Of a stretch of 64,000 nt of DNA, positions 48,054-48,887 are shown piece by piece. Source of the DNA: Haladaptatus sp. DJG-WS-42 (lineage in GTDB: Archaea > Halobacteriota > Halobacteria > Halobacteriales > Halococcaceae); contig NZ_CP147243.1 in the NCBI RefSeq assembly GCF_037198285.1, forward strand, positions 1,364,001 to 1,428,000, given 5' to 3'. The notes beneath the pieces are model-generated. The model had not been told where the DNA came from, did not search any database, and was given only the letters and a program-made list of their open reading frames with translations. Made by a program: the position numbers and the translations under genes. How positions within the stretch are numbered: position 1 is the first letter of the stretch; each line of letters begins with the position of its first letter.

Positions 48054-48284
48054 TTAAGGCGGCCAGAGCGGCAGGGTCACTCCCGTACCCATCCCGAACA
48101 CGGAAGATAAGCCTGCCTGCGTTCCAGTGAGTACTGGAGTACGAGAGTCTCTGGGAGAGCTGACCCGCAAGGGTGACAAGGTACAGTCCCAGGACTGCCA
48201 TCCATAGTACACGCAGGGTTTGTCCCGGTGGAATTGGAGAACAGTCCGTTATAACGGTCTGCCACCAGTGGTTCGCCGCCTCCA
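48054..48284 (+). rRNA. 5S ribosomal RNA with a long internal insertion
   Basis: TTAAGGCGGCC at the 5' end, CCCGTACCCATCCCGAACACGG in the middle (loop region) and TTCGCCGCC at the 3' end are standard haloarchaeal 5S. The total length is about 231 nt instead of about 122, because 48157-48268 interrupts the sequence after CTCTGGGA. This is the length and position known for Halococcus morrhuae 5S rRNA. Terminal pairing GGCGGC/GCCGCC is intact, so the RNA should fold and function. Confidence 0.93.
48157..48268 (+). other. Insertion within 5S rRNA
   Basis: About 112 bases, replacing about four in ordinary 5S (net about 108), sit between CTCTGGGA and TGGTTCGCC. The segment is itself structured: CAGTCC-CA-GGACTG (48184-48197) is a perfect hairpin, and CAGTCCGTTA/TAACGGTCTG (48242-48261) is a near-perfect one. 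No ORF, tRNA or splice-site motif is recognised in it. Confidence 0.85.
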
Positions 48285-48303
48285 TTCATACTTCATTCAT
48301 CAA

Positions 48304-48331
48304 GCCTAGAGCGAGAGCTCTGGGCTTTTTT
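48304..48331 (+). terminator. Hairpin plus T-run after 5S rRNA
   Basis: GCCTAGAGC (48304-48312) and GCTCTGGGC (48317-48325) form a nine-pair stem with one wobble and a four-base loop, followed directly by six T. Oligo-T alone is enough for archaeal termination; the hairpin makes this a strong end for the rRNA transcript, before tRNA-Cys. Confidence 0.75.
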
Positions 48332-48421: not shown

Positions 48422-48497
48422 GCCAAGGTGGCAGAGTCCGGCCAAACGCAGCGGCCTGCAGAGCCGCCCATCGCCGGTTCAAATCCGGCCCTTGGCT
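48422..48497 (+). tRNA. tRNA-Cys (anticodon GCA)
   Basis: This 76-nt tRNA has acceptor GCCAAGG pairing with CCTTGGC, anticodon loop CTGCAGA and T-arm CCGGTTCAAATCCGG. Its discriminator T is the cysteine identity base. It follows 5S, beyond a strong terminator, so it probably has its own promoter (CGCTTAAGCG near 48387-48396). Its 3' 24 bases recur 99 bp downstream. Confidence 0.96.
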
Positions 48498-48887
48498 CTT
48501 CTGACCGAGTGCTACGAGGTCTGAGAGACATCTGGTCGATTTCGAACCCTGAGACGAGCGAAGTGAGTCTCACCGGTTCAAATCCGGCCCTTGGCTTTCT
48601 GTTGCGAACAAATTCGTGAGCGACAGCGCCTACCGGCGTTCTCCTCGGCCTGTCGCATGCGTTCTGGGTTGGAGATAAGTCCGTTAAGACTTCCGTAGTA
48701 GCACGTTATACACTCTCTATCTCTTGTTTGAACTGTTTTGGCGCATGCAGATTCTCGCCCAGAACCTGTTTGTTACCCATACTTTATCTACTTGAAACTG
48801 GATAGCATACGTGACAATGTCTGCGTCTTTGCTTTTATCTGCCCGTGCTTCGGTAAGGGTGTCCGTTGTCCGAAGAGGCGGTATGGT
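48498..48887. other. Non-coding gap after tRNA-Cys
   Basis: Apart from the partial tRNA copy at 48573-48596, about 390 bases hold no convincing gene. The A/T-rich part near 48700-48850 may be the promoter of the sensor kinase. The open frame that starts at 48738 joins the kinase frame but its first 50 residues are cysteine-rich and unlike coding sequence. Confidence 0.5.
48573..48596 (+). repeat. Partial copy of the tRNA-Cys 3' end
   Basis: The last 24 bases of tRNA-Cys (48474-48497, CCGGTTCAAATCCGG then CCCTTGGCT overlapping) recur exactly at 48573-48596. The copy is preceded by the palindrome TGAGAC/GTCTCA (48550-48572) around GAGCGAAGTGA. The rest of the tRNA is absent, so it is not a second gene. 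Confidence 0.88.

Follow-up and report, generated by a model that had tools for sequence, protein, structure and literature searches.

What does the 5S rRNA gene of the haloarchaeon Haladaptatus sp. DJG-WS-42 gain from being almost twice the usual length, does its additional sequence adopt a specific fold, and where did it come from? The gene lies in the window analysed here, a 64,000-nt stretch of contig NZ_CP147243.1. Expanded 5S rRNA of this size, with the extra sequence at this site, has been known in Halococcus morrhuae since 1981, where it is the cell's only 5S rRNA (Luehrsen 1981, in the account given by PMC7812874). Stepanov and Fox (PMC7812874) described expanded 5S rRNAs in 15 archaeal strains of four genera, Halococcus, Halalkalicoccus, Halomarina and Halodesulfurarchaeum, noting a V shape in which the distal stem-loop is the most conserved part. 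Cryo-EM has shown density for the H. morrhuae insert in the 50S subunit, the structure of the insert being called unknown there (PMC7530397). Expanded 5S rRNA of the Halococcus type is, then, already published and the window locus is a further member; new here are a covariation-backed structure, a bulged-G signature at its tip and a deeper distribution.

The rRNA operon in the window runs in the order 16S, tRNA-Ala, 23S, 5S, tRNA-Cys. The 5S gene (48054-48284; all features given here are on the plus strand) starts with TTAAGGCGGCC and ends with GTTCGCCGCCTCCA. It is complete, with every core landmark present, and its 231 nt and insertion site equal those of the H. morrhuae locus (L029). Compared with the normal 5S genes of relatives, an expansion segment of 113 nt (48157-48269, its 3' edge being arbitrary by a few nucleotides since the last bases pair with the core) replaces about five nucleotides where core loop E (GGGA) meets the 3' strand of helix V. 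In the normal relative L003 the junction reads CTCTGGGA-ACACC-GGTTCGCCGCC, so that the spacing of the two flanks is 5 nt there as against 113 in the window, a net gain of 108 nt. The initial annotation, which described a 5S gene with all standard landmarks interrupted after CTCTGGGA by an insertion of about 108 nt and likened it to that of H. morrhuae, was right on both counts: the site is the loop E/helix V junction (core position 104.1-105), as in the Halococcus-type segment, and L029 aligns along the whole insert.

When folded against the Rfam 5S_rRNA covariance model (RF00001), the gene matches well above the gathering score (70.5 bits against 38), with the match restricted to its first 119 nt (48055-48173). 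The match ends early because the model reads the first hairpin of the insert as the 3' end, the same boundary error being described for expanded 5S genes in PMC7812874. The expanded gene is the sole 5S of the genome, a single contig of 2,782,331 bp (assembly about 97.6% complete) in which no normal 5S locus was found, and the two sister species (G001 and G002) have one 5S apiece, each with the insert. An assembly artefact is ruled out by the presence of the same insert in 40 further genomes. Downstream of the gene lies a terminator-like stem-loop with a T tail (48302-48327). Further on, the last 27 nt of tRNA-Cys (48471-48497) recur with 96% identity at 48570-48596, 99 bases downstream, a repeat resembling the duplicated attachment site that an integrating element leaves behind.

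The secondary structure of the insert was drawn on 18 inserts and tested on 30 (29 distinct) aligned by covariance model. Across the 29 distinct inserts the pairing is kept, as standard pairs, in 97.7% of cases, and two-sided, compensatory changes are seen in 18 of the 27 pairs. The covariation score is 0.582, compared with 0.209 for shuffled alignments, a contrast inflated by kinship among the sequences, and with no more than 0.116 once partners are shifted by one to three columns. The alignment of 30 was itself fitted to the structure, but a model built without the inserts of Halorutilaceae and of a small-genome family (f2, see below) still detects both, with E-values of 1e-16 to 1e-10. On this comparative evidence the insert consists of a mostly GNRA-capped hairpin together with a long arm of stacked helices.

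The short arm is helix A (48163-48174), the hairpin ACCC-GCAA-GGGU, in which AU, CG, GU and UA pairs replace one another with 100% of cells paired; its GNRA tetraloop is GCAA in the window, and the caps across inserts are mostly GNRA (GCAA, GAAA, GAGA). The long arm begins with helix B, which pairs 48183-48188 with 48257-48262 and shows two-sided changes in five of its six pairs, the A-C/G-U exchange in the outer pair being an isosteric wobble change. Helix C (48192-48197 with 48242-48247) has such changes in four of six pairs and again 100% of cells paired, and helix D (48201-48204 with 48235-48238) has them in all four. From sequence comparison, these results argue for one particular secondary structure in the largest known archaeal 5S insert, and they uphold the earlier proposal of a structured insert subject to selection. 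The accompanying idea of two self-complementary hairpins stands only in part. Covariation confirms the hairpin at 48163-48174. The palindrome CCGTTATAACGG at 48246-48257, probably the second one meant, is by contrast not conserved as a hairpin, and its ends belong to two long-range helices.

Conservation is highest at the tip of the long arm. Here AGUA (48206-48209), found in 28 of the 29 distinct inserts, faces GAA (48231-48233; GAA, GAC or GAU in relatives), and the two enclose helix E and its terminal loop (48210-48230), whose sequence, CAC.C.GGG-UUUGU-CCC.G.GUG, is nearly invariant. The tip as a whole (alignment columns 56-83: AGUA, helix E, loop and GAN) averages 1.74 bits per column, compared with 0.69-1.06 in helices B-D. 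With so little variation, covariation is a limited test for helix E and the bulged-G motif; the register of helix E is backed by a C-G to G-C change in G358 and an A-U to G-C change in G018 and G034. An alternative register for helix E offered by RNAalifold was dropped, as it is broken by G358.

Sarcin-ricin loops, like loop E of eukaryal and archaeal 5S rRNA, are marked by a bulged-G signature in which AGUA faces GA(N) and a Watson-Crick pair closes the motif. This signature is present, closing pair included, in the window and, by our count, in 26 of the 29 distinct inserts, the closing C-G becoming G-C in G358, and the 5S core of relatives bears the same signature (AGUA...GGGAA). Deviants are G187, with AGCC for AGUA, and two Halorutilus-type inserts with GGA for GAA. 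Judging by its sequence, the tip would form a three-dimensional bulged-G motif of the loop E/sarcin-ricin kind. Neither PMC7530397 nor PMC7812874 mentions this signature in the insert tip; the short motif can now be named as a target for mutation or as a feature to seek in a map.

A covariance-model survey found the insert in 41 of the 394 genomes of the order, of which 354 have any 5S match, and in 12 of the 95 genera. A scan of named genomes with a fixed tip pattern favours conserved tips. Conservation was assessed from the survey instead, whose model was built in part from the scanned set and so keeps some of that bias. Carriers include, besides the window genus, Halococcus, Halalkalicoccus, Halomarina, Halodesulfurarchaeum, Halocatena, Actinarchaeum, Halorutilus salinus, the Ca. 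Ordosarchaeia MAGs Ods01 and Ods02 (PMC10873845) and f2, a family of small (about 1 Mb), G+C-poor genomes (39-49% at the loci) that, judging from size and position, may be the Hikarchaeia (PMC7599335). The insert reaches deeper haloarchaeal branches than reported in the literature we found, among them Halorutilus, described as a sister taxon to Halobacteria (PMC10134839). The 295 genomes sampled across the phylum yielded no carrier outside the order.

Some individual genomes deserve comment. Two carriers with two 5S genes (G227 and G391) have the insert in both copies. Within one genus (g64), the gene in G187 (L083) is expanded with a decayed tip and those in G251 and G314 (L109 and L110) are normal, a pattern that is possibly a loss in progress. 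A Halodesulfurarchaeum MAG (G185) has a normal match (C149:2586-2707) and an expanded 5S (C262:3214-3329) on different contigs, reflecting either contamination or a true mixture, and a small contig of an f2 MAG bears a further 5S (L013, G018:C103), normal in length and clearly different from the first, perhaps from another archaeon. Shortened or partial 5S matches in G368 and G005, and zero matches in the well-completed G096, G059 and G119, may reflect either rRNA contigs absent from the assemblies or additional 5S genes of unusual form.

The initial annotation called the origin of the insert unexplained, and in terms of source sequence it is so still. Duplication of the 5S core was considered and rejected, local alignments of insert and core being not clearly above shuffles in six of seven cases and showing no consistent similarity, and the covariance-model survey found no second copy of the insert elsewhere in its own genome. 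In rRNA and RNA polymerase trees a group comprising Halorutilus, Ods01, Ods02 and the normal-5S genome G027 (f9) is, with full support, sister to all other haloarchaea; the backbone order after it is well supported under LG+G4 and collapses under a mixture model, and our conclusions do not lean on it. Presence and absence of the insert require seven to eight changes on these trees, and a single gain followed by losses only would need, by our own count, ten to twelve losses. Markov ancestral-state models allowing regain, run on several trees with unit lengths for bootstrap trees lacking branch lengths, put the probability of presence at the base at 0.76, 0.53 or near 0 across runs.

One explanation of the whole distribution is transfer, the insert having originated within a single haloarchaeal clade and reached the others when it recombined into their 5S genes; PMC7812874 proposes horizontal transfer for Halomarina and Halodesulfurarchaeum. 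The patchy distribution, with at least seven changes, speaks for it. So does the insert alignment. In AU tests it rejects the species tree inferred from RNA polymerase (p about 0.001 or less), and still does so when only one strand per helix is kept (p 0.0006), which makes some transfer likely; a species tree with Halalkalicoccus and Halodesulfurarchaeum placed beside Halococcus is not rejected (p 0.08). The insert shared by Halococcus and Halalkalicoccus (f14) indeed looks like a transfer: the inserts differ by 3.5-10% and the rRNAs by 10%, and the ratio of insert to RNA polymerase distance is 0.40. Elsewhere among the 36 group pairs, however, that ratio is 1.1-2.4, implying old separation for most pairs: insert divergence tracks RNA polymerase divergence, also for those involving f9 and f2 (1.4-1.9) and for Halomarina to Halococcus (1.6). 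Furthermore, the deepest lineage carries the insert, and viral contigs, in the narrow test of an exact match to the tip pattern, gave none.

Transfer as the full explanation thus seems unlikely to us, and an ancient single origin with losses and some transfer is favoured over it. Probably the insert was gained once, long ago, near the haloarchaeal base, was then lost many times and was later transferred at least once, between Halococcus and Halalkalicoccus. A bolder version can be offered tentatively, as a proposal a little short of even chances. The expanded 5S would be ancestral, gained once on the stem of Halorutilus/Ca. Ordosarchaeia, f2 and Halobacteria, and the 122-nt 5S of most haloarchaea would be derived through some ten independent losses or replacements, with the tip, another module of the loop E type, docking onto a ribosomal partner. 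With the deeper distribution, the choice between transfer and ancestry plus losses becomes decidable by a resolved phylogeny.

As to function, transcription of the rRNA operon would include the segment, which most likely persists in the finished 5S rRNA, by analogy with H. morrhuae, in which direct RNA sequencing and cryo-EM show that the mature 231-nt molecule retains its insert (PMC7812874, PMC7530397). Introns and intervening sequences removed from the mature RNA do exist in other rRNAs, but RNA sequencing of the H. morrhuae 5S showed the insert in place, the 50S subunit of that species has density for it, and the base of the insert is spanned by the pairing of helix V; removal is accordingly highly improbable. 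The insert folds as an independent V-shaped domain at the loop E/helix V junction. The long arm (helices B-C-D) would act as a spacer selected for shape rather than sequence, closed by the almost invariant hairpin that follows the bulged-G, loop E-like motif. The tip could then present a fixed recognition surface to a partner on or near the central protuberance, which could be an rRNA element (H38, for instance), a protein or some other factor. Docking by such a surface is suggested by conservation of arm shape and tip sequence; against it speaks the H. morrhuae arm, which is flexible, poorly resolved and not docked in the cryo-EM map (PMC7530397). Faint density towards H38 in that map, which its authors were unable to distinguish from noise, is compatible with docking.

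The same flexibility would suit a neutral, tolerated ornament without function, its structure kept merely to spare 5S folding, as would the fact that most haloarchaea lack the insert with no obvious consequence, even inside one genus (G251 and G314 compared with G187). Yet avoidance of misfolding alone predicts the opposite of what is seen, namely that conservation peaks at the distal tip, farthest from the core, and we consider neutrality rather improbable. Our verdict is that the insert is real and functional-looking. With good confidence overall, we read it as a retained, flexible ribosomal arm, conserved in shape, whose fixed tip would dock a partner, and which was probably gained anciently, lost many times and transferred at least once.

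Comparison with known systems places the window locus as follows. The bacterial 5S expansion segments of Thermoanaerobacterales and others (PMC7812874) are likewise extra folded 5S modules, but their insertion sites and structural types are unlike those of the window. With the bulged-G (sarcin-ricin/loop E) motif, the insert tip has in common AGUA opposite GA(N) with Watson-Crick closure, a putative assignment made from the sequence. The closest match is the 231-nt 5S of H. morrhuae, which is likewise the only 5S of its cell, is just as long, and has a homologous insert at the same site; Halococcus inserts and those of the window genus differ at about 29% of positions on average, and a mature RNA with the insert has been reported for H. 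morrhuae. More broadly, the archaeal segments of PMC7812874 have the same V-shaped domain, with a short hairpin and a long arm ending in a conserved distal stem-loop. To the four genera of that set the present work adds the window genus, Halocatena/Actinarchaeum, Halorutilus, the Ca. Ordosarchaeia MAGs and the small-genome lineage.
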